46,394 bases of DNA. It comes from a virus. The notes under the pieces were generated by a model that did not search any database, had not been told where the DNA came from, and worked only from the letters and a program-made list of their open reading frames with translations. Position 1 is the first letter of the stretch. Each line of letters begins with the position of its first letter. Positions 2,542 through 34,314 of this stretch are shown in pieces. The stretch spans positions 1 through 46,394 of the IMG/VR virus record IMGVR_UViG_3300036826_000347. One strand, written 5' to 3'. The translations under genes and the position numbers were made by a program.

Positions 2542-2612
2542 AGAAGAGAAGTGTGTGCCAAAATTAAAACCGTTTTGGAGAAATCATTCATACGCCCTCT
2601 TCTTATTTTCTT
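2542..2612 (+). ncRNA. Putative small RNA S1 / structured leader
   Basis: The expected 5' end (AGAAGAG, 2542-2548) pairs perfectly with CTCTTCT (2597-2603), which is followed by TATTTTCTTTT. An internal hairpin pairs CCAAAA (2558-2563) with TTTTGG (2573-2578). The layout of promoter, 5' terminal stem, internal hairpins and T-rich end is the same as in S2 and S3. It could be an independent roughly 70-nt RNA or an attenuating leader of the gene at 2636. A GTG at 2555 would be only about 13 bases after the -10, too close to be a good start. Confidence 0.5.
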
Positions 2613-2635
2613 TTGATTATATAGGAAGGATTAAG

Positions 2636-3082
2636 GTGCCTAATTTCGAACACAAGCTGACTTTCGACAATCCGTTCGGAGGTCTAAAAACGCATATCAA
2701 ACGGTATAAGATGGTATATTCAATTGGGACAACCGCGGTTATCGCAGGAATTACTGGTCTTATAATAGGAGGGCGATGTGCCGGGATTCTTGGAGTGCCG
2801 GATAGAACGGTGACGACCGTGTTTGCACGCCCTCTTTTTCTATTTTCCAATCACAACAAAATGTACAACGTAGTTGCGGTAATTACGAAAGAAGGGCGCG
2901 GTCATCCCGGATTTCCAATTTTGTGCAAAGAGACCGGAGATGTCTTCTTGTCGCAAAATGGCGCAGCGTCATGGCTCGGTGTTTCTCCGGGTATTCTTTC
3001 TTCACATCTAAAAGGATATCGTCCTAACATTGACGGTTTCACGTTCGAACGTCTGTCAGCAATTCCTGCAATTCCAGCCTAA
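2636..3082 (+). CDS. Membrane-anchored protein with small DNA-binding-like C-terminal domain
   Basis: I place the start at GTG 2636 behind AGGAAGG, giving 148 residues; an upstream GTG at 2555 would lie within the S1 leader. Around residues 23-48 is a membrane helix (YSIGTTAVIAGITGLIIGG). The C-terminal half reads ILCKETGDVFLSQNGAASWLGVSPGILSSHLKG..PNIDGFTFERL. That pattern resembles the NUMOD1/HTH-like modules that follow a sequence-recognition theme in phage proteins. I recall similar short proteins in actinobacteriophages with a membrane segment and this ending. The gene contains an embedded promoter-like element and a putative small RNA (2742-2845). Confidence 0.7.
   Translation: MPNFEHKLTFDNPFGGLKTHIKRYKMVYSIGTTAVIAGITGLIIGGRCAGILGVPDRTVTTVFARPLFLFSNHNKMYNVVAVITKEGRGHPGFPILCKETGDVFLSQNGAASWLGVSPGILSSHLKGYRPNIDGFTFERLSAIPAIPA
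2742..2766 (+). promoter_or_regulatory. Phage promoter P7, inside a coding region
   Basis: TCGCAG at 2742-2747 and TATAAT at 2761-2766 with exactly 13 bases between, inside the gene at 2636-3082. Both boxes match the consensus perfectly, although the spacer is less A-rich (GAATTACTGGTCT). The chance of both hexamers at this exact spacing is small, but the region also encodes a membrane helix, so this copy needs testing. Confidence 0.5.
2767..2845 (+). ncRNA. Putative small RNA S2, embedded in a gene
   Basis: Immediately after the P7 -10 box, AGGAGGGCG (2767-2775) pairs with CGCCCTCTT (2828-2836), 9 bp with one wobble, followed by a T-rich stretch. Inside are CCGG...CCGG and ACGGT-GACG-ACCGT hairpins and a GTGC/GCAC extension of the closing stem. 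The TTGGAG...ACGG..ACG..CGTG order is shared with S3. The sequence is also codons of the gene at 2636-3082, so the RNA is a nested gene or a coincidence. Confidence 0.4.
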
Positions 3083-3093
3083 CCATATATCGG

Positions 3094-3260
3094 TTAGGTT
3101 ACTCAGACACAGGCCCAAATCCTAGACGCAGCGCGGAAGAGTACTGACCTGCTCTTTGGCGGCGACAATAAGACTCGATAACCCTTTGGTTATCCCTTAG
3201 CTAGGTGCTGTCAAAAGGTAGGTCAGTGCGATAGCACAAGCCTGTGTCTCAGTAACCTAA
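3094..3260 (+). ncRNA. Structured RNA candidate A
   Basis: A 21-base arm at 3094-3114 pairs with 3240-3260 with a single mismatch. Inside, ACTGACCT (3143-3150) pairs with AGGTCAGT (3220-3227), GATAACC-CTTT-GGTTATC forms a 7-bp hairpin at 3177-3194, and GTGC-GATA-GCAC forms another at 3226-3237. The total is 167 nt. The left arm can alternatively pair with CCTAACC (3078-3084), which overlaps the stop codon of the upstream gene, so a switch between two folds is possible. It is not a tRNA (no acceptor or T-arm pattern), and I recognise no known class. Confidence 0.65.
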
Positions 3261-3267
3261 TCGGAGC

Positions 3268-3292
3268 TCGCGAGAAAAACTTACACTATAAT
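3268..3292 (+). promoter_or_regulatory. Phage promoter P5 (TCGCG-13-TATAAT)
   Basis: TCGCGA at 3268-3273 and TATAAT at 3287-3292 with 13 bases between. The spacer GAAAAACTTACAC resembles that of P6 (GAAAAACTGGGCA). It starts 8 bases after RNA candidate A and directly precedes small RNA S3. Confidence 0.75.
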
Positions 3293-3360
3293 AGAAGGGG
3301 GAGAGCTTCGCATTGGAGCCAGACACGGCTACGGTCGTGAACCCCTTCTATTTTTTCTTT
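3293..3360 (+). ncRNA. Putative small RNA S3
   Basis: AGAAGGGG (3293-3300), which begins right after the -10 box, pairs perfectly with CCCCTTCT (3342-3349), followed by ATTTTTTCTTT. Between the arms lie short stems (AGCC/GGCT and CACG/CGTG). No coding frame is convincing in these 68 bases. The perfect terminal stem starting at the likely transcription start and ending in a T run makes this the clearest of the three putative small RNAs. Its target is unknown. Confidence 0.6.
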
Positions 3361-3371
3361 GAGGAGGTGAT

Positions 3372-3470
3372 ATGTACGACGTTGCGTTTTGGATCGTGTA
3401 CAAGATCGGTGTTCTAACTAGGAGACTCAATGTTCGTAATCGTCGAGAAGAAGAACTACGGTTTTTTTAG
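3372..3470 (+). CDS. Very small hypothetical protein
   Basis: This 32-residue reading frame begins at an ATG placed ideally behind GAGGAGGTGAT. The product (MYDVAFWIVYKIGVL then basic and acidic residues) has a short hydrophobic start and no recognisable family. It overlaps the better supported 46-residue gene at 3430-3570 by 41 bases in another frame. It may mainly serve as a leader that couples translation of that gene. Confidence 0.45.
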   Translation: MYDVAFWIVYKIGVLTRRLNVRNRREEELRFF

Positions 3471-3576: not shown

Positions 3577-4392
3577 ATGCATATGTTGAGTGCACTGATT
3601 CGCCATGGCGATAAGGTGAAGTTCTTGTTGAAGGATCATGCGCCGACGATTCTGACGGGCGTGGGTGTTACGGGCACGATTGCGACGGCATATTTGACCG
3701 GACGCGCCTCGTTCAAAGCGGCCGAGCTGATCGAGAAGGATCCGGGTGTCGAAAGCATGTATGTCGACGGCGATGGCGGCATGGCTCGGATGCATCGACC
3801 GTTGACCAACTTCGAAAAGAGCAAACTGGTCTGGAAGCTGTATATTCCACCGCTTGGTGCAGGCGTACTGACCGTCGGCTGCATCATCACCGCAAATCGA
3901 ATCTCGGCAGCTCGGATTGCAGCCTTGGGAGTTGCGGCCGGTATTTCTGAACGGGCACTGCAGGAATACAAGGATAAGGTGCTCGAGCGATTGGGTGAGA
4001 AGCAGAGCGAAAAGATTCGTGACGAGATTGCGCAGGATCGCGTCAATGACAGCGCCGAGAAGGCGAGCAATGTTGTTGTCATGGGCTCAGGCGACGTGCT
4101 CTGTTATGACGGACTGACTGGTCGTTATTTCACCAGTTCAGTTGAGAAGATCAAGCAGGCCGAGAACCATCTCAATTTCGAGGTGTTGCGGCATATGTAC
4201 GCCAGTTTGAGCGAGTTCTACGAACAGATCGGCTTGCCTCCGACTACCTACAGCGATAGTGTCGGCTGGCACAGCGAGACCGGAGAGATCAATGTAATGC
4301 TTTCGACGACGATGACTCCAGACAATCGTCCGTGCATCTCGATCGACTTCGAGAAGATGCCGCAGACCGAGTATTACAAGCTGCACGAGTGA
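3577..4392 (+). CDS. DUF6353-like membrane protein, copy 1
   Basis: This 271-residue protein shows the pattern I recall for DUF6353 phage proteins. An N-terminal segment reads FLLKDHAPTILTGVGVTGTIATAYLTGRASFKA; then comes a hydrophobic pair (YIPPLGAGVLTVGCIITANRISAARIAALG, about residues 90-125), a basic coiled segment, and a C-terminal SEFYEQIGLPP..DSVGWHSETGEINVMLSTTMTPDN. The function of the family is unknown. A second, divergent copy lies at 6690-7610. The ATG at 3577 follows AAAGGT; an alternative ATG lies two codons downstream. Confidence 0.75.
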   Translation: MHMLSALIRHGDKVKFLLKDHAPTILTGVGVTGTIATAYLTGRASFKAAELIEKDPGVESMYVDGDGGMARMHRPLTNFEKSKLVWKLYIPPLGAGVLTVGCIITANRISAARIAALGVAAGISERALQEYKDKVLERLGEKQSEKIRDEIAQDRVNDSAEKASNVVVMGSGDVLCYDGLTGRYFTSSVEKIKQAENHLNFEVLRHMYASLSEFYEQIGLPPTTYSDSVGWHSETGEINVMLSTTMTPDNRPCISIDFEKMPQTEYYKLHE

Positions 4393-4578: not shown

Positions 4579-5118
4579 ATGCTCAAGAAGACGATTACGT
4601 ACGAGGATTTCAACGGCGAGACAGTTGTCGAGGATCATTTCTTCCATCTCTCGAAAGCGGAGCTAGTCGAGCTCGAACTGAGCCATCAGGGCGGTTTGGC
4701 GGCCTCGTTGCAAAAGATCATCAGCTCCGAAGATGGCAAGGCAATCATCGCGGAATTCAAGAATATCATCCTGACCTCCTACGGCAAGCGTTCGGACGAT
4801 GGACGACGTTTCATCAAGAACCAGGAATTTCGTGAAGAATTCGAATCGACCGAGGCATATTCGGCGTTGTTCATGGAATTGGTTACGGATACAGACGCCG
4901 CGGTCGAATTTGTCAACGGCATCATTCCGGCAGGTATGAGCGAGGAAGCTGCTAAATTGGCAGGAATCGACCCCAAGACCACACCGTTGATCGTGGTAGA
5001 GAACGAATCGCCGGGAAGACTCGTAACGAGGAAAGAATTCGTGGAGATGTCTCAGGATGAGCTTCGCGAGTTGGGACCGAAATTGGCCTCGGGTGAGGTG
5101 AAGCTCGAGCAGGAATGA
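4579..5118 (+). CDS. Tail assembly chaperone-like protein
   Basis: The N-terminus (MLKKTITYEDFNGETVVEDHFFHLSKAEL) and the central block (FKNIILTSYGKRSDDGRRFIKN, ESTEAYSALFMELVTD, FVNGIIP) match a conserved phage family. I recall it beside tail genes, annotated as a tail assembly chaperone or hypothetical protein, in Gram-positive phages. The family is usually near the tape measure gene; here it sits among early small genes, far from the second chaperone-like gene at 39461. Its stop codon is part of the first arm of RNA candidate 1. Confidence 0.65.
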   Translation: MLKKTITYEDFNGETVVEDHFFHLSKAELVELELSHQGGLAASLQKIISSEDGKAIIAEFKNIILTSYGKRSDDGRRFIKNQEFREEFESTEAYSALFMELVTDTDAAVEFVNGIIPAGMSEEAAKLAGIDPKTTPLIVVENESPGRLVTRKEFVEMSQDELRELGPKLASGEVKLEQE

Positions 5119-5228
5119 GGATAGCGAAATTAATGAGACGACAAAAAGATGGCCTCGTGGAAGCGCCATTAACAAAGCGTCAGCCCTGTCCACGCGGGGA
5201 AGGCGGTTAAAGCCGCTCGCTATCCTCA
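5116..5228 (+). ncRNA. Structured RNA candidate 1
   Basis: TGAGGATAGCG (5116-5126) pairs perfectly with CGCTATCCTCA (5218-5228), closing 113 nt. Inside are GACG (5137-5140) with CGTC (5178-5181), a hairpin ATGGC/GCCAT (5149-5169), a GCGG/CCGC hairpin near 5203-5216, and a loop contact CGTGG (5156-5160) with CCACG (5190-5194) that would form a pseudoknot. The first arm includes the stop codon of the chaperone-like gene. It shares CGACAA.AAGA with candidates A and 2. I see no coding frame and no tRNA features. Confidence 0.65.
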
Positions 5229-5232
5229 GAAG

Positions 5233-5417
5233 TTCCCAGGCTTAGTTAGATCACCGTCTTGTAGGAGAGGTCTCCCTATGTGGAGGCCCTTCACGAGATT
5301 TAAGGGGCGACAAAGACCTAGACTTCTGCAAGAGTTCGGGAACAAATCGTCCGGTGTTGCAGCGCAAAGCGGGTTAACTCGTACCGCGCGAGACGGCGGT
5401 CTAACTAAGCCTGGGAA
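5233..5417 (+). ncRNA. Structured RNA candidate 2
   Basis: A 27-base arm (5233-5259, starting TTCCCAGGCTTAG) pairs with 5391-5417 (ending CTAAGCCTGGGAA) with one wobble and one mismatch. This is the longest stem in the window. Inside, CTGCAA pairs with TTGCAG, AGGTCT with AGACCT, and a GCCCTT/AAGGGGC stem and a TAGG..CCTA hairpin are visible. Total length is 185 nt. Its last base lies one base before promoter P6, just as candidate A ends right before P5. The class is not recognised. Confidence 0.7.
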
Positions 5418-5418
5418 T

Positions 5419-5443
5419 TCGCATGAAAAACTGGGCATATAAT
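5419..5443 (+). promoter_or_regulatory. Phage promoter P6 (TCGCA-13-TATAAT)
   Basis: TCGCAT at 5419-5424 and TATAAT at 5438-5443 with 13 bases between. The leader AGAACCTACTAAGGAG is nearly that of P1 (AGAACTACTAAAGGAG). It drives the single gene at 5465-5704, which ends in terminator T4. Confidence 0.8.
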
Positions 5444-5464
5444 AGAACCTACTAAGGAGATGTT

Positions 5465-6447: not shown

Positions 6448-6690
6448 ATGACAAGAGCAGTTGAGATTCGAGAATTCGCTCAACGAGTTGAGCGTGTGTG
6501 TGATTTTCTGCTTGATCTTTTGAGCGCCGAAGGAATGAAAAACAAATCGACCGATGCTCGGGTAATTGAAGATCTGAGAGACGATGCCGTGAGTATCCAA
6601 TTCAATCGAATAGATTATCCTCATCTCTTCGAGGGTCTCGACACGTATATACGCGGCATTCCGATAAATAAAGCAGAAACCAAGGAGTAA
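6448..6690 (+). CDS. Small hypothetical protein
   Basis: This 80-residue, mostly helical, charged protein (TRAVEIREFAQRVERVCDFLLDLL...VIEDLRDDAVSIQFNR) is not recognised. No clear ribosome binding site precedes the ATG. The stop overlaps the start of the next gene (TAATG), so it probably belongs to the same transcript as the DUF6353-like gene. The pairing with a membrane-protein operon is the only hint about its role. Confidence 0.65.
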   Translation: MTRAVEIREFAQRVERVCDFLLDLLSAEGMKNKSTDARVIEDLRDDAVSIQFNRIDYPHLFEGLDTYIRGIPINKAETKE

Positions 6691-7610
6691 TGATGAAGTT
6701 CGTCCCCGAGGCGATCACAAAGACGATTGCCCATAATTCTTTGTTACTGCAGAAGAGCTCTCCAAAGCTTCTTTTTGGAGTCGGTATGGTTGGTATGGTC
6801 GGAAGTACAGTTCTTGCTTGTCGCGCTACGTTGAAAATGGATGAAATCGTCGACGAGGCGAAGAGTAAGCTCGATCTGGCCAAGACACTCGAGCACGAAG
6901 ATTACGGCGAAAAAGATCGCCAACGGGATATTTCGCTCATCTACTTCCAGACCAGCGTCAAAGTGGTACGAACATATCTACCGGCAATTATCGTCGGTAG
7001 CGCATCGATTGCTGCTCTGACCTATTCGCACAATATCCTAACCCGGCGTAATATCGCTTTGACCGCTGCATATTCCGCCTTGGACAAGGGATTTCGCGAA
7101 TACCGAGCGCGAGTAATCGATAAGTATGGTGAAGACGAAGATCGAAATCTCAGATACGGCAGTCAAGAAGTAGAAGTTATCGACGAAAAAGGTAAAAGTA
7201 AGAAGGTGATCCGGGCAGCTCCGGGTACGCCATCGATCTATGCGCGCTTCTTCGATTCATATTCGGCCAACTGGGGCAAAGATCACGATTACAATATGTA
7301 TTTTCTGCTTTGTCAGCAAAATTGGGCCAACGATTGCCTGAAAGCTCGCGGTCATGTGTTCTTGAACGAGGTCTACGACTTGCTCGGACTCGATCGTTCG
7401 AAAGCGGGAGCAGTGGTCGGTTGGATTCAATCTAAAAATGGCGAGACCGACAATCATATCAGTTTCGGTGTTTTCGACGGCAAAACGCAGGTCGCACGCG
7501 ATTTTGTCAATGGTTACGAAGGTGCGATCTTGCTCGATTTCAATGTCGACGGTGTAATTTACGATCAAATTGAAGGCTCATCGGAGGATCCAAAATGGCA
7601 GCGGTATTGA
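6690..7610 (+). CDS. DUF6353-like membrane protein, copy 2
   Basis: This 306-residue protein has the same plan as copy 1 at 3577. It has SSPKLLFGVGMVGMVGSTVLACRATLKMDEI near the start, a central hydrophobic region (YLPAIIVGSASIAALTYSHNILTRRNIALTAAYSAL), a basic coiled stretch and a C-terminal domain (LNEVYDLLGLDRSKAGAVVGWI....ISFGVFDGKT). The function of the family is unknown. It overlaps the next gene by 16 bases, suggesting coupled expression of two membrane proteins. Confidence 0.75.
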   Translation: MMKFVPEAITKTIAHNSLLLQKSSPKLLFGVGMVGMVGSTVLACRATLKMDEIVDEAKSKLDLAKTLEHEDYGEKDRQRDISLIYFQTSVKVVRTYLPAIIVGSASIAALTYSHNILTRRNIALTAAYSALDKGFREYRARVIDKYGEDEDRNLRYGSQEVEVIDEKGKSKKVIRAAPGTPSIYARFFDSYSANWGKDHDYNMYFLLCQQNWANDCLKARGHVFLNEVYDLLGLDRSKAGAVVGWIQSKNGETDNHISFGVFDGKTQVARDFVNGYEGAILLDFNVDGVIYDQIEGSSEDPKWQRY

Positions 7611-8938: not shown

Positions 8939-11900
8939 ATGGACTTTTATCAGATCCGGACTAGAGAGACAAAAGATAAAGGATTAGAGCTTTACCCCGA
9001 CTTTATCATTGGGAGATCTCAGGATCTGATGGTTCAAGGACGAATGTTTTGTGCAATTTGGGATGCAGCACGAGGTTTTTGGTCTCGGGACGAATACGAC
9101 GTTCAACGTTTGGTCGACGAGGATCTAGAAGCAGAAGCCGAGAGACTACGAGCAGAGACGGGACTATCCTACAACGTACGTTATATGCGCTCGTTTCAAA
9201 GCAATTCCTGGGCGCAGTTCAAGAAATTCGTAGCTCATATCAGCGACAACAATCACCCACTCGATTCGAAAGTCGTCTTCGCCAATTCTCCGGTGCAGAA
9301 AAACGACTATGCGACCAAAGTGTTGCCATATGCTTTGGAGGGGGGTGATATCTCGGCTTGGGAGGAGCTCGTCGGAACGTTATATTCGGTCGAAGAACGA
9401 GCCAAAATCGAATGGGCTATCGGATCCATCGTGGCGGGAGACTCGAAGAAGATCCAAAAATTCTTCGTCTTCTATGGTCCTGCTGGATCCGGTAAGTCTA
9501 CTATCCTGAACGTTTTGCACAAACTGTTCGAAGGTTATACAACTACATTTGACGGAAAAGCGTTAGGACGTTCGGACGGAACTTTTTCTACCGAAGCTTT
9601 CAAATATAACCCCCTGGTCGCTATTCAACATGACGGCGATTTGTCCAAATTGGAAGACAACACTCGGCTGAATTCGATTGTCTCGCACGAACAAATGCTG
9701 ATGAACGAGAAGTACAAGCCGAGCTACACTGCCCGAGCCGAAGCGCTGTTATTCATCGGCTCGAATCAGCCGGTCAAGATTACTGATGCTAAATCGGGGA
9801 TTATTCGTAGATTGATCGATATTCATCCGACGGGTATTCGAATACCGGTTCGACATTACAATACCTTGATCACTCAGATCGATTTCGAGTTGGGTGCAAT
9901 TGCGGCCCATTGTCAGCATGTATATTTGGAAATGGGCAAGAATTACTACAATGGTTATCGACCGTTGGAGATGATGTTACAAACAGACGTCTTCTTCAAC
10001 TTTATCGAAGCCTATTATGACGTGTTCAAAGCACAAAATTACACTACCTTGAAACAGGCCTACGGTTTGTACAAGGAGTTTTGCTCGGAAACGGGAATTG
10101 CCCAACCGCGTGCTCAATACCGGATACGCGAAGAACTACGTAATTATTTTGATGACTTCAAAGATCGAGGCGAAGTAAACGGTGAACGTGTTCGTAGTCT
10201 ATATTTGGGATTCAACGCGGAGAAATTTAAGATTCCAAAGGAAAGTGACGATGACCTACCTGCGTTTTCTTTGGTCATGGATGAGACTGATTCGCTCCTC
10301 GATACGATTCTTGCTGACTGTCCGGCCCAGACGGCAACTAAAGATGGAGCGCCTGGTCGAAAATGGGAAAAAGTAACGACCAAGCTGTCAGATATTGACA
10401 CTAGGCAATTACACTATGTGAAGATACCGGAAAATCATGTCGTAATCGATTTCGACTTGAAGGATATCAACGGCGATACGCGCTTGGAACGTAATCTCGA
10501 AGCCGCCAGTAGCTGGCCCGCGACCTATGCTGAGATCAGCAAGTCCGGTCAAGGCGTACATCTGCACTATATTTACGAAGGCAATACTGCGGAGCTGGCG
10601 GCGATATATTCAGAAGGAATCGAAATCAAGGTCTTTACCGGCGATGCTTCTTTACGTCGACGTTTAACACTCTGTAATGCGCTTCCAATCTCGCACATTA
10701 GTAGCGGACTTCCGCTCAAGCAGAAGAAGGAGACGATGCTTAAGGCTAAGACGATTACCAGCGAAAAGGGCCTTAGGGATCTAATCGAGCGGAACTTGCG
10801 TAAAGAGATCCATCCTGGCACCAAGCCTTCGATCGACTTCATCGCGCATATTCTTGCCGAAGCGCACAAAGACGGTTTGAAATACGACGTTACCGATTTG
10901 CGACCGCGAATCATCGCCTTTGCCAACAACAGTACTAATCAAGCGGTGACTTGTTTGAAAACTGTACAGACGATGCAGTTTCAATCCGAGTCCGAGCTCG
11001 AGGGCGATGTGGTGGTAAAGGTCGACGATGATCGGATGGTTATATTCGACATCGAAGTCTATCCCAATCTGTTTGTCATCTGTTGGAAATTCAAAGGTGC
11101 TGATGAAGTTGTTCGGATGATCAATCCTTCGCGAGAAGAAGTCGAGAATTTAACCAAGTTGAAATTAGTCGGTTTCTACAATCGTCGTTTCGACAATCAT
11201 ATTCTCTATGCTGCTGTCTTGGGTTACAGCGTCAAACAACTGTATGAACTGACACGTAAGATCGTAATCGAGAACAATCGCAACGCGTTCTTCGCCCAAG
11301 CATACAATCTTTCTTACGCCGATGTCTGGGATTTTAGCTCGATTAAGCAAAGCTTGAAAAAATTCGAGATCGATCTCGGCATCCACCATATGGAACTGGA
11401 TCTTCCCTTGGACGAGCCGGTGGACGAAAAGGATTGGCCGCGAGTCGTCGAATACTGTGTCAACGATGTTCGAGCAACGGAAGCTGTGCTGGAAGATCGT
11501 TGGGAGGATTTCGTCGCACGGCAAATCCTGGCCGAGCTTAGCAGTTTGACTATCAACGATACGACACAGCGTCATGCGGCGAAGATCATATTTGAGAACG
11601 AGAGAAATCCACAACAATATTTCGTCTATACCGATCTAAGCGAAGAATTCAAGGGCTATCGTTTCGACGCTGGAAAAAGCTGGTATCGCGACGAAGATCC
11701 AGGAGAAGGAGGATACGTTTATGCGGAGCCCGGGATATACTCGAATGTGGCTCTCCTTGATATTGCTTCCATGCACCCGACTTCTATTGAGATCCTTAAT
11801 CTCTTCGGCAATTACACGAAGAAATATTCCGAATTGAAGAACGCTCGCTTAGCGATCAAAGAACGAGCCTTTACTCGCGCACGAAAGATGTTCGACGGTC

Positions 11901-12688
11901 GTTTAGCCCCCTATCTCGAAAATGAAGATGGAGCAGACAAGCTGGCATATGCATTGAAGATTGTTATTAATATTGTCTATGGTTTGACTTCGGCGAAATT
12001 TCCGAATCCATTTCGTGACAATCGCAATAAAGATAATATCGTCGCCAAGCGTGGAGCTCTCTATATGATCGATTTGAAAAACGACTTGATCGAAAATGGT
12101 CATCGCGTTGTCCATATCAAAACCGATTCAGTCAAGATTCCAAACGCGACCCCAAAAGCTATTGGGTTTGTAAAGAAGCATGGGAAGCGTTATGGCTATG
12201 ACTTCGAGCACGAGGTCACCTATGACAAACTTTGTCTAGTCAACGACGCGGTTTATATTGCTTGTAAGGATGGTAAGTGGACGGCGGTCGGATCGCAATT
12301 CCAGCACCCGTATATCTTCAAATCTCTGTTCTCGGGTGAAGAGATCGTTTTCGACGACTTTTGTGAGAGTAAGAACGTAATTCAAGGAACAATGTATCTC
12401 GACCGAGAGGAACGTAATAAAGATGAAACGTTCGATCATCGTACTATGCGGCATGTTGGGCGCACTGGCCGGTTTGTACCTGTCAAAGCCGGAGGCGGTA
12501 CGCTCTATCGGGTCAAAGATGAAAAGCATTACGCCGTAGCTGGAACCAAAGGTTACAAATGGATCGAAGCCGAGCTGGCACTGACGATGCCGGAGCTCGA
12601 AATCGATATGTCCTATTTCGAGAAATTGAAGGATGAAGCGATCAAGACAATCGAGCAATTCGGTTCATTTGAGGAGCTTGTATCATGA
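8939..12688 (+). CDS. Helicase-primase-family B DNA polymerase fusion
   Basis: This 1249-residue protein combines three replication enzymes. Residues about 160-300 are an SF3/D5-like helicase: Walker A GPAGSGKST at 180-188, acidic Walker B region near 226-240, and LLFIGSNQ...GIIRRL with the arginine pair near 290. Residues about 495-590 are an archaeo-eukaryotic primase (AEP) core: IDFDLKD at 503-509, SGQGVHLHY at 536-544, RRRLTLCN. Residues about 700-1249 are a family B polymerase: exonuclease motifs DIEVYPN (704-710), NRRFDN and YCVNDV (839-844), then DIASMHPTSI (941), KIVINIVYG (1007) and KTDSVKI (1061). All key acidic residues seem present. The gene overlaps the next by four bases. Confidence 0.9.
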   Translation: MDFYQIRTRETKDKGLELYPDFIIGRSQDLMVQGRMFCAIWDAARGFWSRDEYDVQRLVDEDLEAEAERLRAETGLSYNVRYMRSFQSNSWAQFKKFVAHISDNNHPLDSKVVFANSPVQKNDYATKVLPYALEGGDISAWEELVGTLYSVEERAKIEWAIGSIVAGDSKKIQKFFVFYGPAGSGKSTILNVLHKLFEGYTTTFDGKALGRSDGTFSTEAFKYNPLVAIQHDGDLSKLEDNTRLNSIVSHEQMLMNEKYKPSYTARAEALLFIGSNQPVKITDAKSGIIRRLIDIHPTGIRIPVRHYNTLITQIDFELGAIAAHCQHVYLEMGKNYYNGYRPLEMMLQTDVFFNFIEAYYDVFKAQNYTTLKQAYGLYKEFCSETGIAQPRAQYRIREELRNYFDDFKDRGEVNGERVRSLYLGFNAEKFKIPKESDDDLPAFSLVMDETDSLLDTILADCPAQTATKDGAPGRKWEKVTTKLSDIDTRQLHYVKIPENHVVIDFDLKDINGDTRLERNLEAASSWPATYAEISKSGQGVHLHYIYEGNTAELAAIYSEGIEIKVFTGDASLRRRLTLCNALPISHISSGLPLKQKKETMLKAKTITSEKGLRDLIERNLRKEIHPGTKPSIDFIAHILAEAHKDGLKYDVTDLRPRIIAFANNSTNQAVTCLKTVQTMQFQSESELEGDVVVKVDDDRMVIFDIEVYPNLFVICWKFKGADEVVRMINPSREEVENLTKLKLVGFYNRRFDNHILYAAVLGYSVKQLYELTRKIVIENNRNAFFAQAYNLSYADVWDFSSIKQSLKKFEIDLGIHHMELDLPLDEPVDEKDWPRVVEYCVNDVRATEAVLEDRWEDFVARQILAELSSLTINDTTQRHAAKIIFENERNPQQYFVYTDLSEEFKGYRFDAGKSWYRDEDPGEGGYVYAEPGIYSNVALLDIASMHPTSIEILNLFGNYTKKYSELKNARLAIKERAFTRARKMFDGRLAPYLENEDGADKLAYALKIVINIVYGLTSAKFPNPFRDNRNKDNIVAKRGALYMIDLKNDLIENGHRVVHIKTDSVKIPNATPKAIGFVKKHGKRYGYDFEHEVTYDKLCLVNDAVYIACKDGKWTAVGSQFQHPYIFKSLFSGEEIVFDDFCESKNVIQGTMYLDREERNKDETFDHRTMRHVGRTGRFVPVKAGGGTLYRVKDEKHYAVAGTKGYKWIEAELALTMPELEIDMSYFEKLKDEAIKTIEQFGSFEELVS

Positions 12689-19384: not shown

Positions 19385-19765
19385 ATGGCTAACGAAATCG
19401 ATCTTCAGCCGCAAGTTTTGAATCTAGCATTGTATGCTGGAGATGGTGTTGAATTTCGCTTGATTTGTACAGACAAAGCCGGTGCTCCCGTTGATGTTAC
19501 CGGTACGGTGAAGGCGCAGATTCGATTAGATCGAATGACGCCGGATCCCGCAATTGTCGAGTTTACTGCCGGTATGGTCGACGCCTATCAAGGAATCGTC
19601 GTACTTACTTTGACTGGTGTTCAAACACAAACTCTGTCGGCGCATCCTTCTGCGGTAAAGGGAACTTTTGTCGGTGTCTGGGATGTACAGTGGGCACCAG
19701 CAGGTAAGCAACCGCGGACGTTGTGTCAAGGATCCGTGGAGTGTGTGTCTGATGTTACTAGATGA
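19385..19765 (+). CDS. BppU N-terminal-like baseplate/fibre adaptor, copy 1
   Basis: I place the start at ATG 19385 behind GAAAGGAGGAGC, giving 126 residues. The protein has repeated beta strands: [40 protein letters not shown]...[32 protein letters not shown]. It resembles the N-terminal domain of upper baseplate proteins (DUF2479/BppU type) that anchors fibres to the tail. It has a paralogue at 29797-30159 with the same ending (GVWDLQ...VTR). Each is followed by a collagen-like protein, so the pair works as fibre anchor plus fibre. Confidence 0.7.
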
Positions 19766-21746
19766 TATTATCGTAACCATCGATCCAAAAGAGATTGTTG
19801 TTGTAGATGAGGTAAACGATATCGAGCTAGTGGGTGAATCGCATCCAGAAACAATTGTCGAGTTTGAATTTAATGTTGATCCGGTCGATGTGATTATTCG
19901 AGCCGAAGAAACGTCGATTACGGTTGAATCGCCACCCGATATTAAACTGGGAGTAAAGTCAGTTCCAGACGTGATTGTATTGGCGGCGGGTAATATCGGC
20001 AATCCTGGTCCTCCCGGTCCCGAAGGTCCACAAGGAGCAATGGGGCCACAGGGTAATCCCGGTCCTACGGGAGCAAAAGGCGAACAAGGTCTTGTTGGAC
20101 CACAAGGAGAACAAGGGGCTGTAGGTCCTATGGGACCCGTTGGTCCGCCGGGAGCAGCTAATGCAGCATATACAAGTGTTTGGACTTGGACGACTAAAAC
20201 GGCCGACGCCGCTACTAATGGTCAAATTGGTATTAATACTGGAAGCTGGGCAACTGCGACACAATTGAATCTGAATGAGAAAAATAATAATAACGCCGAT
20301 ACAACTAATTATCTAGCTAAAGTAGCAGTTGGCGATGAACTTTATGTTCAACAAAAAACTGACGCAACTCGTTGGGCCAAATATCGAGTTAACGTTTTAC
20401 CTACCGATCAAGGGGCATGGTGGTCGTGGCCGGTTACATTTATCGAGGGCAATGGGAATCCTCCTAATGGTAATGCCGAGACAATTTTTACCATTCTGAT
20501 TCAGGGCGCTCAAGTTGAAGAATGGTTGAATGGGAGTGGAGCTCCAGCAGGATCATTGGGTAAAATCGGCGATATGTATCTCGATATGGCTACAGGTAAT
20601 GTTTATGAAAAAACCGCTATTTCGACTTGGACTCTACGTGGGAATATTAAGGGTCCGACTGGAGCAACGGGTCAAGCAGAGGCGTGGTGGTCCGCTGTGG
20701 GTGCGCCTGCCGCGGGTACAGGTGTTGTTGGCGATTGGTATTTGAATACAACTAATGGTGATGTTTACGAAAAAACAGCTACTTCGACTTGGACTCTACG
20801 TGGGAATATTAAGGGTCCAATCGGTGACACTGGTGCTACAGGAGCACAGGGCGCAACTGGCGTAGGTGTTCCGACTCCGGTTATAAATGGACAATGGATT
20901 AAAGGTTCCGGTGGAGCGGCAATTTGGTCGGCAATTGCACAAGCAGATTTGCCTACGAATTTTCGTGCTGACGCATTAACGATTACCGATTGGAATACGG
21001 CAAACACAAACGGTTGGTATACAGGTATAGCGGCGACCAATGGACCGAGTACGACGATTTCCGGTGCAGCAACATATTTAGTTGGATTGGTCAAACGAGC
21101 TGCGGGTAATTATTTCGTACAAACGGTGTGGGATTATGCTCAAGGTACGCAAAATGGTCAAATTCGTACTTATCAACGACGTATTATGGGTGCGGGTCTT
21201 TGGTCTCCATGGGAGCAAATTTGGCCAATAGCCTATGCTACGTCTTTACCAGCTGCACCGTATGATGGACAAGAGGCAATTCTTGTTGATTCACTTACCG
21301 CTCCAACTTATCAATGGCGATTTCGTTATAATGCTGGTTCAACTTCGACGTATAAGTGGGAATTTATTGGCGGCGCCCCATTAGTCAATCAACCAGGTGG
21401 AACGCAGGCCATTACGATTAGTTCGGCATATCAAACATTTGGACCAACAATTACTGTTTTACGATCTGGTATTTATGTGGTTGATATTACTACCGTTGCT
21501 TATTCTGGTCCAATTAATGCTCATATTACGTATTTAACTCCTTTTGCTGGTGCGACTCCAATTGGTGAACAACTTATATTCGCTGGACCAGGTAGTGCTA
21601 ATACTTGGACATTTCAAGTATGCGGACGTTCTATTATTATGCTTACTAGTGGAAATATTATAGGTTTTGGAACGAAATCGGATCAAGCAAATAACTGGAC
21701 TTTTGCAGATCGTGCTCTTTCTCTTACTCCGGTAAAAGTATCATGA
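19752..21746 (+). CDS. Collagen-like tail fibre, probable receptor-binding protein
   Basis: From ATG 19752 (ribosome binding site inside the preceding gene) this encodes 664 residues. The order is an acidic N-terminal region (residues 1-80), about 20 collagen triplets ([13 protein letters not shown] onwards), a beta-rich spacer, two 54-residue repeats ending in [17 protein letters not shown], more triplets, and a C-terminal domain starting [14 protein letters not shown]. That domain includes a pyocin_knob-like segment ([16 protein letters not shown]...YFVQTVWDY). The C-terminal domain is the likely host-binding part. The start is uncertain; a GTG three codons upstream is also possible. Confidence 0.8.
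20521..20818 (+). repeat. Two 54-residue direct repeats in the fibre gene
   Basis: Two units lie 162 bases apart (about 20521-20656 and 20683-20818). The last 36 bases are identical at 20621-20656 and 20783-20818. They encode GS/GAPA..G..GD.YL....[19 protein letters not shown]. They probably arose by a recent in-frame duplication within the fibre gene. Confidence 0.8.
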
Positions 21747-27636: not shown

Positions 27637-27859
27637 AATCTTTAATCTTCTCGCACTTGATCATCCCGATTGGACAATTCCCTGGGCGGGATTAGGCGCT
27701 TTACTGCTAGGTTCCGGCAGTTTACTTACAGGAATTGCCGCCATAATCACGGCGAGGAACAGGGGGCGCGATGAGCAAACAACTCGTTCTGCTGTTCTCG
27801 AGTCTGACGATGATGGGAGGAGCAGGATTTCTGACAGCGACAGCGATGAGTCAGGATAG
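27626..27859 (+). CDS. Small membrane protein, holin candidate 2
   Basis: This 77-residue protein starts in the previous gene. It reads [42 protein letters not shown], one long hydrophobic helix followed by a charged tail. I recall the [29 protein letters not shown] pattern from actinobacteriophages next to lysis or head genes. The C-terminal 29 codons overlap the collagen-like gene in another frame. It may act as holin or antiholin with the preceding protein. Confidence 0.7.
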
Positions 27860-28157
27860 CGGACCGACTCGAACTGTGACGATTGATATTGCTACCGGAC
27901 CACAAGGACCCGCTGGCGAGACAGGTCCGAAAGGCGATCAGGGACCAGCGGGAGAAACGGGTCCGAAAGGCGATCAGGGACCAGCGGGAGAAACGGGTCC
28001 AAAAGGCGAGCAAGGGCTTCCAGGCCCGCAAGGACCTCCGGGAGAAAGTGGTGGCGGTCCTTGTAGCGGAGCTCCGCCGGGTTACGAGCCGGGAATCTTG
28101 CAAATTAATCATCCGGGTGGGCATGTAAAGATTTTCACATGTCTGGAGCCGAAATGA
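27771..28157 (+). CDS. Exported collagen-like protein
   Basis: This 128-residue protein begins with a hydrophobic signal segment ([23 protein letters not shown]), a short beta region (TRTVTIDIA), sixteen or so collagen triplets (three copies of [12 protein letters not shown]), and a C-terminal domain with two Cys ([28 protein letters not shown]). Similar exported collagen-like proteins occur near lysis genes of actinobacteriophages. The location in the virion or on the host surface is unknown. The 5' end overlaps the holin candidate gene by 89 bases. Confidence 0.7.
27906..28013 (+). repeat. Three 36-base collagen repeats
   Basis: Three direct tandem units encode [12 protein letters not shown] (last Q preceded by E in copy 3). 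Copies two and three are almost identical, a recent minisatellite-type expansion. They code for collagen triplets and are not a CRISPR array. Confidence 0.85.
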
Positions 28158-29796: not shown

Positions 29797-30159
29797 ATGG
29801 CGGTCATCGACGTAGGACCACCTAAAGTCGACTTGCTTCGTATTCGTGCCGGTGATCGGAATTTAATTACGGTAACGCTTACTCAGAATGGTCAACCGTT
29901 TGATCTATCTGGGCTGACTGTCGAAGCACAGGCACGACTTACACCTAATGATTCAACAATTGCGGTTGAGGCCGTTATCAATATTCTTAATGCTGAAGAA
30001 GGACAATTCGAGATGCGTTGGCCTGGCGATGATGTACGAACTTTATTGGATAATCAAAAAGGTTGGTTCGGTGTTTGGGATCTTCAGGTTGGTAACGGTT
30101 TTGATCCACAAACCTTGATGGCTGGAATCTTTACGATTGAACCGGATGTAACGAGATGA
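29797..30159 (+). CDS. BppU N-terminal-like baseplate/fibre adaptor, copy 2
   Basis: This 120-residue beta-rich protein (RIRAGDRNLITVTLTQNGQPFDLSGLTVEAQARLTPND...GVWDLQVGNGFDPQTLMAGIFTIEPDVTR) parallels the protein at 19385-19765 in length, ending and gene context. The TVTLTQNGQPFDLSG pattern fits the BppU (DUF2479) N-terminal domain. It probably anchors the collagen-like fibre that starts in its stop codon (ATGA). Confidence 0.75.
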   Translation: MAVIDVGPPKVDLLRIRAGDRNLITVTLTQNGQPFDLSGLTVEAQARLTPNDSTIAVEAVINILNAEEGQFEMRWPGDDVRTLLDNQKGWFGVWDLQVGNGFDPQTLMAGIFTIEPDVTR

Positions 30160-30548
30160 GTACAAATATGGAAGTAAATACGAGTACACAAAACGTTGAG
30201 GTTAGCCAATCGCCTATTGAAATAACGGTTGACGTTCCGGCAGCTCCGGATATTGTAGTTGGAATGCCGGGACCAACCGGTCCTCCAGGTCCGCCGGGTT
30301 CAGAGGGTCCTCCAGGTCCGCCGGGAACTAGTGGAATTCCATTAGGGGGAGAGGCTCAACAAAGTTTGGCAAAAGCAAGCGCGAATGATTATGATGTTTT
30401 TTGGATGGATGTTGAGAATATTAGCTATAGAGGTAATTGGATAGACACATCATATAAAAATGGCGATATTGTTGTATACAATAATATTGTTTATATATGT
30501 GTTCGTCCTACTAATAATCCACCAATAGCATGGCCGGTGATGCCATAA
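30156..30548 (+). CDS. Short collagen-like fibre with carbohydrate-binding-like end
   Basis: This 130-residue protein has an N-terminal beta region (STQNVEVSQSPIEITVDVPAAPDIVVG), a short collagen stretch (GMPGPTGPPGPPGSEGPPG) and a C-terminal segment YRGNWIDTSYKNGDIVVYNNIVYICV. That segment resembles carbohydrate-binding modules of the chitin-binding (CBM5/12) type. It would be the fibre part of the second module. It is followed directly by a LamG-like protein. Confidence 0.75.
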   Translation: MSTNMEVNTSTQNVEVSQSPIEITVDVPAAPDIVVGMPGPTGPPGPPGSEGPPGPPGTSGIPLGGEAQQSLAKASANDYDVFWMDVENISYRGNWIDTSYKNGDIVVYNNIVYICVRPTNNPPIAWPVMP

Positions 30549-31538: not shown

Positions 31539-32477
31539 ATGCCCGACCTCGTTATTGTAGCGATTCCGTCCGAAGACGACTATATTTACAAGATCTCGAG
31601 TGAAGAAATTCCACATTTGACATTGTTATTTCTAGGCGAATCGAAACAAGTTAAGAATTTTAGTGCGATTGCCGATTTTGTCAAACACGCAAGTAAACTA
31701 AGTCTTACTCGTTTTGGCCTAGAAGTGGAACGTCGTGGAGAATTGGGCGAAGAGCAAGCAGATGTACTCTTCTTCGCCAAGCGCTGGAACGATTACGAAA
31801 TGATACGAGATTTTCGATCGTATTTGCTTAAAAACAACGATATTCGTACTGCCTATGATTCGATCGAGCAATTTCCCGAGTGGGTTCCACACATCACGTT
31901 GGGCTATGCGGATGCCCCGGCCAAGGAAGATAAGCGCGATTATCCCGGAATCAATTATGTGTCGTTTGATAAAGTTGCGCTTTGGTTTGCCGATTTCGAG
32001 GGTATAGAATTCCCTTTGAAAGCTTACGAAGGGGATGAGACGGTAGAGATGAGCAATCTTATGGAAAAGGTTCTTACTCATCACGGCGTCAAGGGGATGA
32101 AGTGGGGTGTTCGACGCAAAGCAACCGTTGGTCCGCAAGAAGTAATCGTCAGCGATCGTAGAAAGAAGCTTAAAACATCTGGTGGAGCAGGACATCCGGC
32201 ACATTCCGATGCCGTCAGTGCGCGTACGTTGGGACAAAGAGGAAAGAAGAGTGGTCTCAAATCTTTGTCTAATAAAGAACTGACTGACTACGCAAAGCGA
32301 TTGCAGTTGGAACAAAACGTCAAGCGACTTAATTACAACGATATGAACCCAGGTAAGAAATTTGTCGCCGGTCTTCTCGGTCAAACGGGAAAGAATACGG
32401 TTCAAAATGCTGCTAATGATGTTGCCGGTCAGCAAGTCAAGAAACGATTGGCAAAGATCGCAATTCTAGCTGCATGA
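31539..32477 (+). CDS. 2H phosphoesterase fused to a head-associated domain
   Basis: This 312-residue protein has an N-terminal 2H phosphoesterase domain with both HxT motifs, HLTLLF (His26) and HITLGY (His118), about residues 1-165. Next comes THHGVKGMKWGVRR at residues 179-192, a motif I know from head-associated proteins and toxin-carrying fusions in Gram-positive phages, and a basic C-terminal helical region (SNKELTDYAKRLQLEQNVKRLN). 2H enzymes cleave RNA or cyclic oligonucleotides; the anti-CBASS protein Acb1 has this fold. It may be packaged in the head and injected. That is inference. Confidence 0.8.
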   Translation: MPDLVIVAIPSEDDYIYKISSEEIPHLTLLFLGESKQVKNFSAIADFVKHASKLSLTRFGLEVERRGELGEEQADVLFFAKRWNDYEMIRDFRSYLLKNNDIRTAYDSIEQFPEWVPHITLGYADAPAKEDKRDYPGINYVSFDKVALWFADFEGIEFPLKAYEGDETVEMSNLMEKVLTHHGVKGMKWGVRRKATVGPQEVIVSDRRKKLKTSGGAGHPAHSDAVSARTLGQRGKKSGLKSLSNKELTDYAKRLQLEQNVKRLNYNDMNPGKKFVAGLLGQTGKNTVQNAANDVAGQQVKKRLAKIAILAA

Positions 32478-32568: not shown

Positions 32569-34314
32569 ATGAGCCTGTCTAATACGGCGATACCGATTTA
32601 TTACGGTCGGTTTCGCGAGGCAGTTCTCCGAAGTGAGATTCCGGTTAATCGAGAGATCTCAATGGAGATGAATCGTATTGATTCGCTCATCGCTAACCCC
32701 AACATCTATTATGACGATCAAGCAGTCGAGGGATTTATTCGTTATTGCGAAGGTGAGCTGACTTTAACCGACGGTTCCGATCTTCATCTGCTGGAATCGT
32801 TTAAACTATGGGCCGAGCAAATCTTCGGTTGGTATTATTTCGTTGAACGAAGCGTCTATGTGCCGACGAAAGAAAATCACGGCGGGCACTACGAGAAACG
32901 ATTGATCAAGAAACGGTTAACGCTCAAACAATACTTGATTGTCGCTCGCGGGGCAGCCAAGTCGATGTATGCGTTTTTAATCCATAGCTATTTTCTCAAT
33001 GTCGATACTTCGACGACGCATCAGATCAACACGGCGCCGACGATGAAGCAGGCCGAAGAAGTTTTGTCACCATTCCGTACTTCGATCACGCGCTCGCGCG
33101 GACCGTTGTTCAAGTTCTTAACTGAGGGCTCGTTGCAGAATACAACCGGTTCGAGAGCTCTTCGAGTCAAATTGGCTTCGACGAAGAAAGGGATCGAGAA
33201 TTTTCTTACCGGCTCGATACTCGAGATTCGCCCAATGGCAATCAACAAGCTGCAAGGTTTACGTCCGAAGATTTCTACGGTCGACGAGTGGTTGTCCGGC
33301 GATCTGCGAGAGGATGTTGTTGGAGCAATCGAGCAGGGCGCATCGAAATTAGAAGACTATTTAATTGTTGCCATTAGCTCGGAAGGAACTGTTCGTGCAG
33401 GTTCTGGTGACACAATCAAAATGGAGTTAGCGGACATCCTTAAGGGTGAGTACTTAGCACCGCACGTTTCGATCTGGCATTACAAGCTAGACGAAATCGA
33501 GGAAGTTGCTGATCCGGGAATGTGGGTGAAGGCAAATCCAAATTTAGGAGCAACGGTTTCCTATGAAACCTATCAACTCGATGTCGAACGAGCTGAAAAA
33601 GCTCCAGCATCCCGAAACGATATTCTTGCGAAGCGTTTTGGGATTCCCATGGAGGGTTATACCTATTTCTTCACGTACGAAGAGACCCTACCTCATCGTC
33701 AGCGAGAATTCTGGCAGATGCCTTGTTCTCTCGGAGCCGATCTTTCTCAGGGCGACGATTTCTGCGCATTCACCTTTATATTTCCATTGGGAAGAGAGAA
33801 ATACGGTATAAAAACGCGTAGTTATATCACCGAGCTCACGTTGTTCAAACTTCCAGCGGCAATGCGACAGAAGTATGAGGAGTTCGTCAACGAAGGAAGC
33901 CTTTATGTAATGCCGGGAAATATTCTCGATATGATGGAGGTTTACGATGATCTCGATCGGTTTATTCAGACGTCTGAATACGATGTTCGGGCGCTGGGCT
34001 ACGATCCATACAATGCGCGCGAATTCGTAGCTCGTTGGGAAGGAGAAAACGGACCGTTTGGAATCGAGAAGGTAATTCAAGGAGCTAAAACAGAATCGGT
34101 TCCTCTCGGTGAGATCAAGATTATGGCCGGAGAACGTTTGCTGATCTTCGATCAATCGTTGATGTCGTTTGCGATGGGTAATGCGATTACGTTGGAGGAT
34201 ACGAATGGTAATCGCAAGCTCTTAAAGCGACGACAAGAAGAGAAAATCGACAATGTTTCAGCTCTTTTAGACGCCTGGGTCGCATATAAGCTTAACAAGG
34301 AGGCGTTTGAGTAA
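32569..34314 (+). CDS. terL: Large terminase subunit
   Basis: This 581-residue protein is a HK97-type large terminase. The ATPase domain has Walker A ARGAAKSM at residues 126-133 (a variant with AA in place of GK-type spacing) and Walker B ISTVDEW at 235-241. The C-terminal nuclease starts at LGADLSQGDDF with Asp391. The length is typical. It would cut concatemers and pump DNA into the head. The small subunit is encoded 5.9 kb upstream, with fibres and lysis genes in between, an unusual separation. Confidence 0.95.
   Translation: MSLSNTAIPIYYGRFREAVLRSEIPVNREISMEMNRIDSLIANPNIYYDDQAVEGFIRYCEGELTLTDGSDLHLLESFKLWAEQIFGWYYFVERSVYVPTKENHGGHYEKRLIKKRLTLKQYLIVARGAAKSMYAFLIHSYFLNVDTSTTHQINTAPTMKQAEEVLSPFRTSITRSRGPLFKFLTEGSLQNTTGSRALRVKLASTKKGIENFLTGSILEIRPMAINKLQGLRPKISTVDEWLSGDLREDVVGAIEQGASKLEDYLIVAISSEGTVRAGSGDTIKMELADILKGEYLAPHVSIWHYKLDEIEEVADPGMWVKANPNLGATVSYETYQLDVERAEKAPASRNDILAKRFGIPMEGYTYFFTYEETLPHRQREFWQMPCSLGADLSQGDDFCAFTFIFPLGREKYGIKTRSYITELTLFKLPAAMRQKYEEFVNEGSLYVMPGNILDMMEVYDDLDRFIQTSEYDVRALGYDPYNAREFVARWEGENGPFGIEKVIQGAKTESVPLGEIKIMAGERLLIFDQSLMSFAMGNAITLEDTNGNRKLLKRRQEEKIDNVSALLDAWVAYKLNKEAFE

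Follow-up and report, generated by a model that had tools for sequence, protein, structure and literature searches.

Several described RNAs resemble parts of the locus reported here. The packaging RNA (pRNA) of phage phi29 is about 120-170 nucleotides (nt) long and has a closing helix and two hairpins with complementary loops, the lysine riboswitch joins a bent helix to its neighbor by a loop-loop contact of 6 base pairs (bp) at a multi-helix junction, and put of phage HK022 is smaller than the units described below, with two simple hairpins and no kissing loop. To our knowledge, few phage RNAs have tertiary contacts supported by covariation. Phage T4 carries stable small RNAs, species 1 and 2 (rnaC and rnaD), in its transfer RNA (tRNA) cluster. 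ROOL and GOLLD are structured orphan phage RNAs, often found near tRNA islands, that make loop-loop contacts (PMC12286853). Here we describe two kinds of stem-closed RNA in the IMG/VR record IMGVR_UViG_3300036826_000347 of an uncultured phage, which was analyzed over its 46,394 bases (the window; coordinates are window positions unless an L-numbered contig is named). The original prediction had drawn attention to an element at 3094-3260, here delimited as 3090-3264 and named type B. About 2 kilobases (kb) downstream, at 5116-5419, lies a better-supported RNA family that it had missed, type A, and the evidence that this is a new RNA class is strong.

A scan of relatives of the window for long closing stems returned many similar units, including 5231-5419 in the window itself. 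Common to most of them is the core GRRYGACAAA-[P3]-ACAAAUCRYYC-GCC-[P4]-GAAA-[P5], and the type A layout comprises a closing stem (P1), a helix between GRRYGACAAA and ACAAAUCRYYC, and two hairpins whose loops (L3 and L4) pair with each other. A covariance model (CM), R1, was built from 14 type A cores, with copy 2 of the window in the seed and copy 1 outside it. Searching with R1 recovered extra members, among them copy 1 as a third stem-closed unit of the window (5116-5228), and motif scans of IMG/VR added members from clearly different phages. In total, type A was found in 36 virus records with E values from 1e-21 to 3e-5, some of them carrying two copies.

The type A members scanned had zero matches in Rfam, and BLAST against the phage collection gave no match. 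In bacterial genomes, 42 matches to the type A pattern were obtained from mixed phyla, with weak scores and mostly partial coverage of the model, and these look like chance; 396 genomes of one bacterial phylum yielded a single weak match (9e-5) without the GACAA motif. No catalogued family in the open-access literature of PubMed Central has this layout, and type A is loosely of the kind "orphan structured phage RNAs near tRNA islands". It shares with GOLLD and ROOL the structured orphan character, a loop-loop contact and, in some phages, the tRNA-island habitat, but those RNAs exceed 500 nt and have Rfam models of their own, whereas the present units are about 110-215 nt, differ in architecture and have no Rfam match. 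The rnaC and rnaD RNAs of T4, considered as possible relatives, do not match the type A model.

The proposed fold is supported by covariation. In a 38-member alignment, 80% of the cells for P2, P3, P4 and the L3-L4 contact combined hold standard pairs, compared with 60% in shuffled and 37-46% in slid controls, and the covariation score is 0.518, against 0.201 when shuffled and 0.088-0.141 when slid. Changes on both sides were seen for 19 of the 21 pairs. Because P2 and P3 guided the alignment, these figures favor those two helices, while L3-L4 and P4 lay outside the model. An alignment-free test on about two dozen sequences gave a mean longest Watson-Crick match between L3 and L4 of 5.57 nt within the same RNA and 3.90 nt with swapped partners. 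The observed complementarity was reached in 0 of 20,000 permutations, and the result stands when members identified by synteny and members identified by motif are tested apart. Four members (L036, L124, L126 and L128) have a short P3 and lack the contact; P3 arms are otherwise narrowly distributed at 9-13 nt, with few exceptions. The unpaired bases of the CAAA/ACAAA internal loop and the GAAA junction are near-invariant, and P1 (12-38 nt) scores above shuffles in most relatives of the window, and several distant members have a short P1 or none that was detected.

Paralogues within one genome differ in their loop pairs, as the two window copies do (CGUGGA/UCCACG and CUGCAA/UUGCAG). Since these pairs are mutually different, the pairing must take place within one kind of molecule, each RNA with itself. 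A role like that of a packaging RNA, in which loops of neighboring copies would pair to build a ring like that of phi29 pRNA or a cage like those of ROOL and GOLLD, draws on the two complementary-loop hairpins mounted on a closing stem and on this self-complementarity, which would also suit homo-oligomers. Intermolecular kissing loops are indeed used by both ROOL and GOLLD (PMC12286853). We nevertheless consider such a role improbable, because the terminase of the window is an ordinary phrog_9 large terminase and not the phi29 ATPase, genomes carry two or more different copies, and the narrow range of P3 arm lengths suits an intramolecular contact. Only type A shares with pRNA the two mutually complementary hairpin loops, and it differs in its multiple copies, extra helix, invariant CAAA/ACAAA loop, lack of an Rfam match, and type of phage and terminase. 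Its likeness to the lysine riboswitch extends to architecture alone, as it has no conserved downstream gene, no Rfam match and a different core sequence.

The same comparisons bear on whether the repeats act as DNA, for instance as miniature transposable elements or recombination sites. Long terminal inverted repeats are present, as this would predict, but copies within a single genome differ in their arms and yet keep the inner single-stranded motifs, many G-U pairs occur among the compensatory changes, the plus strand folds better than the minus strand in nearly all members listed, and no copies with identical ends and target-site duplications were seen. We regard an explanation at the DNA level as very improbable.

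Type B, to judge from its modeled fold, is a real, tightly folded non-coding phage RNA (Table 1). The closing stem that had been proposed over 125 bases is present, its arms being 92% complementary over 24 nt, with a single mismatch (C.C) in the 21-nt core originally given, and inner stems are also found, as pairing of 3143-3150 with 3220-3227 and an apical hairpin. The predicted fold of 3094-3260 has a free energy of -77.1 kcal/mol, whereas shuffles average -44.5 (0 of 200 reach it), and folding of the minus strand is weaker (z = -5.6). Across the whole window, inverted repeats with a score of at least 16 and arms 40-230 nt apart number just three (3090-3264, the stem 3141-3229 within it, and 5231-5419). 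The mean over 100 dinucleotide shuffles of the window was 0.01 such repeats, none of them as strong as 3090-3264. Type B lies between the open reading frame (ORF) 2555-3082 and the following genes, and no ORF of at least 60 amino acids covers it. Rfam scans gave no match, either at the gathering score or, for 2950-3400, at E<=10, in keeping with the earlier view that it fits no known class. Its size and long closing stem recall 6S RNA, an identity that the original prediction had already doubted and that we also reject, as Rfam gives no match, there is no central promoter-like bubble, and the closing stem encloses a branched, pseudoknotted core.

Relatives were gathered through neighboring proteins, and the sole type B homologue found lies in L106 (the same contig as L024 and L034). 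It retains the closing stem, which shows one compensatory change and two G-U changes, the C.C mismatch being replaced by an A-U pair, and both strands of two internal helices have changed together, CCUAG/CUAGG to CCUAA/UUAGG and, by inspection, CUGACC/GGUCAG to CUAGCC/GGCUAG. These two helices cross, and the type B core is therefore a pseudoknot, which the nested minimum free energy structure of the window or L106 sequence alone does not display. Segments invariant in both phages are CACAGGCCCAAAUCCUARACGCAGCGC, GGCGACAA and GCACAAGCCUGUGUCU. Pattern scans of IMG/VR for a third member gave only L106, the other matches being due to chance and several of them apparently coding. Type B is probably a new RNA, with slim support from its single homologue, and a class cannot be established from two sequences.

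As also predicted, the 5' arm of the closing stem can pair instead with the upstream stop-codon region (9 bp, over the stop codon TAA at 3080-3082). Equilibrium prediction favors the long closing stem over this hairpin. An analogous hairpin in L106 pairs the region of the upstream stop codon (TAA, 3159-3161) with the 5' arm and is built from different sequence. Its presence in both type B phages is suggestive, two sequences being no proof, and gives some support to the idea of two exclusive folds; a switch between them, as had been envisaged, is a possible reading.

Table 1. Positions of type A and type B RNAs, their parts and an adjoining promoter-like site in the window.
Feature	Position	Strand	Evidence or remark
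Alternative hairpin, 3076-3084 with 3092-3100, exclusive with type B P1	3076..3100	+	-11.5 kcal/mol; L106 analogue -14.0
Type B, whole closed unit	3090..3264	+	z=-8.76; homologue L106:3170-3322, z=-5.42
Type B, closing stem P1, 5' arm	3091..3114	+	inverted repeat
Type B, pseudoknot strand 1, CCUAG (L106: CCUAA)	3121..3125	+	
Type B, inner helix 5' strand, CUGACC (L106: CUAGCC)	3144..3149	+	
Type B, apical hairpin GAUAACC-CUUU-GGUUAUC	3177..3194	+	predicted fold; not conserved in L106
Type B, pseudoknot strand 2, CUAGG (L106: UUAGG)	3201..3205	+	one compensatory pair
Type B, inner helix 3' strand, GGUCAG (L106: GGCUAG)	3221..3226	+	two compensatory pairs by inspection
Type B, closing stem P1, 3' arm	3240..3263	+	inverted repeat; kept in L106 with compensatory changes
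Promoter-like AAAAACU-N5-UAUAAUAGAA	3276..3298	+	few bases after type B; recurs in relatives
Type A copy 1; P1 arms 5116-5127/5217-5228; starts at stop codon of ORF 4579-5118	5116..5228	+	CM match 5133-5215, E=3.1e-5; z=-5.7
Type A copy 1, loop L3 CGUGGA, partner L4 UCCACG 5189-5194	5156..5161	+	
Type A copy 1, loop L4 UCCACG	5189..5194	+	
Type A copy 2; 32-nt P1 arms 5231-5262/5388-5419	5231..5419	+	CM match 5302-5384, E=2.5e-14 (seed member); z=-8.3
Type A copy 2, loop L3 CUGCAA, partner L4 UUGCAG 5357-5362	5326..5331	+	
Type A copy 2, loop L4 UUGCAG	5357..5362	+	

Type A and type B occur in the same phages, are both closed by stems, abut in L106, and have the short words GGCGACAA and CAAAU in common. 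The reversed order of CAAAUC and GGCGACAA prompted us to consider type B as a circular permutation of type A, an idea rejected as the would-be P2 pairs fail to form. No permutation was found that would convert one into the other, and we treat the two as separate. Other stem-closed units occur in related contigs. Strongly folded intergenic units without a type A match at L035 4228-4401 and 4682-4850 and at L014 13195-13348 are possibly further RNA classes, and relatives from cultured Gordonia phages have units with a shared core of their own, GGGAACUGGCGCGAAGAAUUGGA (L069 4495-4666, L071 4486-4654 and L074 5000-5194). One type A contig, L128, which IMG/VR classes as viral, also carries a c-di-GMP-I riboswitch (RF01051) at 10468-10545.

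The genomic setting of type A varies. In three unrelated phages it lies between tRNA genes (L238/L117 with 21 tRNAs, L243/L181 with 24 and L242/L183 with 6), in two related contigs (L231 and L232) it is found about 150 nt downstream of a transfer-messenger RNA (tmRNA) gene, and in L244 it precedes a tRNA-Leu/tmRNA/tRNA-Met group by about 1.2 kb. The sampled proteins of these tRNA- or tmRNA-linked phages differ from those of the window relatives. Type B, like the window, is without tRNA genes, none being found across the window's whole length. The protein genes adjoining type A vary between phages, and no single conserved neighbor gene that would point to cis regulation was found among its contexts.

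Type B is among the stem-closed RNA units that occupy the intergenic spaces of this phage group. We suggest that such units are released from long phage transcripts by cleavage at the closing stem and then remain as stable RNAs. The invariant unpaired bases of type A (the CAAA/ACAAA loop and GAAA junction) may present a surface to a conserved host partner, with L3-L4 pairing either locking the fold or joining identical copies. The host translation or tRNA machinery would be the likeliest partner of type A, because unrelated phages have type A in their tRNA arrays or close to tmRNA genes, and because GOLLD, found in the same surroundings, is reported to bind ribosomes (PMC12286853). That these are stem-excised, stable phage non-coding RNAs acting with the host translation apparatus is a proposal whose chances we put at about even. 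We hold with slightly less confidence than that to the wider picture, in which type A is a class found in several unrelated kinds of phage, is built on a multi-helix junction locked by its loops, travels in tRNA/tmRNA clusters and has the host translation machinery as its target, the same phages carrying type B as a separate second class.

Several observations weigh against this picture. Most type A records, including the window, have no tRNA gene near the element. Long P1 stems occur mainly in relatives of the window and are lacking in some members from tRNA arrays, so that excision at P1 cannot be general. No significant type A match was obtained in 12 cultured phages, chosen as relatives or as rich in tRNAs, among them polymerase relatives and two large Streptomyces phages. 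The R1 model does not recognize the type B element, scoring 3.4 bits or lower on 3090-3264, and type B may be unrelated to type A.

The placement of the units would also suit a different function, processive antitermination in cis like that of put, in which the nascent RNA would bind polymerase and carry it through terminators or Rho sites of long operons, untranslated tRNA arrays among them. Like put, the units are intergenic structured phage RNAs of which a genome may have more than one copy; the several copies are diverged, occupy different intergenic spaces and follow the direction of neighboring genes, type A and type B units lying mostly on the same strand as those genes. A terminator-like hairpin is found within 90 nt after type B (3292-3350; UAAUAGAAGGGG...CCCCUUCUAUU followed by a T run), beginning at the presumed start of the promoter-like site, and antitermination would also account for the location in untranslated arrays. 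Put is, however, much smaller and has no loop-loop lock, in some relatives the T run precedes the element instead of following it, and position relative to promoters and terminators is inconstant. We consider this main rival unlikely but of appreciable probability, put itself being a known phage precedent (PMC9378689).

With regard to those flanking sequences, a second copy of AAAAACU-N5-UAUAAUAGAA stands at 5427-5447, a few bases after type A copy 2, and similar promoter-like sites are present in L106, L016, L020 and L047. The promoter-then-terminator-like arrangement has analogues at L106 2480-2570 and at about L016 7100-7150. Promoter and terminator scans were near the shuffle expectation in most stretches and are not decisive.

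Units of the window clade, mostly without tRNA genes nearby, are placed at a stop codon, ahead of a ribosome-binding site or immediately ahead of a promoter-like sequence, and they may abut head to tail (5116-5228/5231-5419 in the window, type B followed by type A in L106). Elements of untranslated regions could be positioned in this way, their duplexes insulating or stabilizing messenger RNA by blocking exonucleases or separating transcription units, or, for type B, regulating in cis through the stop-codon hairpin. Starts at a stop codon are frequent (window 5116, L033, L066), other units end directly ahead of a ribosome-binding site (L024, L037, L123) or promoter (window 5427, L020), and both type B members have the alternative hairpin. 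A plain insulating stem would, however, leave the near-invariant unpaired bases and covarying loop-loop contact of type A unexplained, and we think such a role rather unlikely. We retain action with the host translation apparatus as the preferred, if tentative, reading.

The window is a tailed phage, probably of an actinobacterial host, based on the kinship of its DNA primase/polymerase gene (8939-12688; phrog_4210) to Rhodococcus and Gordonia phage counterparts (about 60% identity) and on its terminase large subunit (32569-34314), which matches phrog_9 and is of the ordinary tailed-phage type. Paralogous phrog_2152 genes (3577-4392 and 6690-7610) lie one on either side of the RNA region. Elsewhere, collagen-like G-X-Y repeats occur in ORFs at 19668-21746, 27771-28157 and 30156-30548, and the ORF at 31539-32477 appears, by eye only, to join a 2H phosphoesterase-like N-terminus to HHGVKGMKWGVRR, a segment common in phage head proteins.

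GOLLD and ROOL, the large RNAs of tRNA islands, are still without an assigned function. Type A is compact, shares their habitat in some phages and is easier to probe, crystallize and delete, and the window's two paralogues, with their mutually exclusive loop pairs, provide a ready specificity control. Type A thereby makes the role of orphan RNAs in phage tRNA islands more directly testable.
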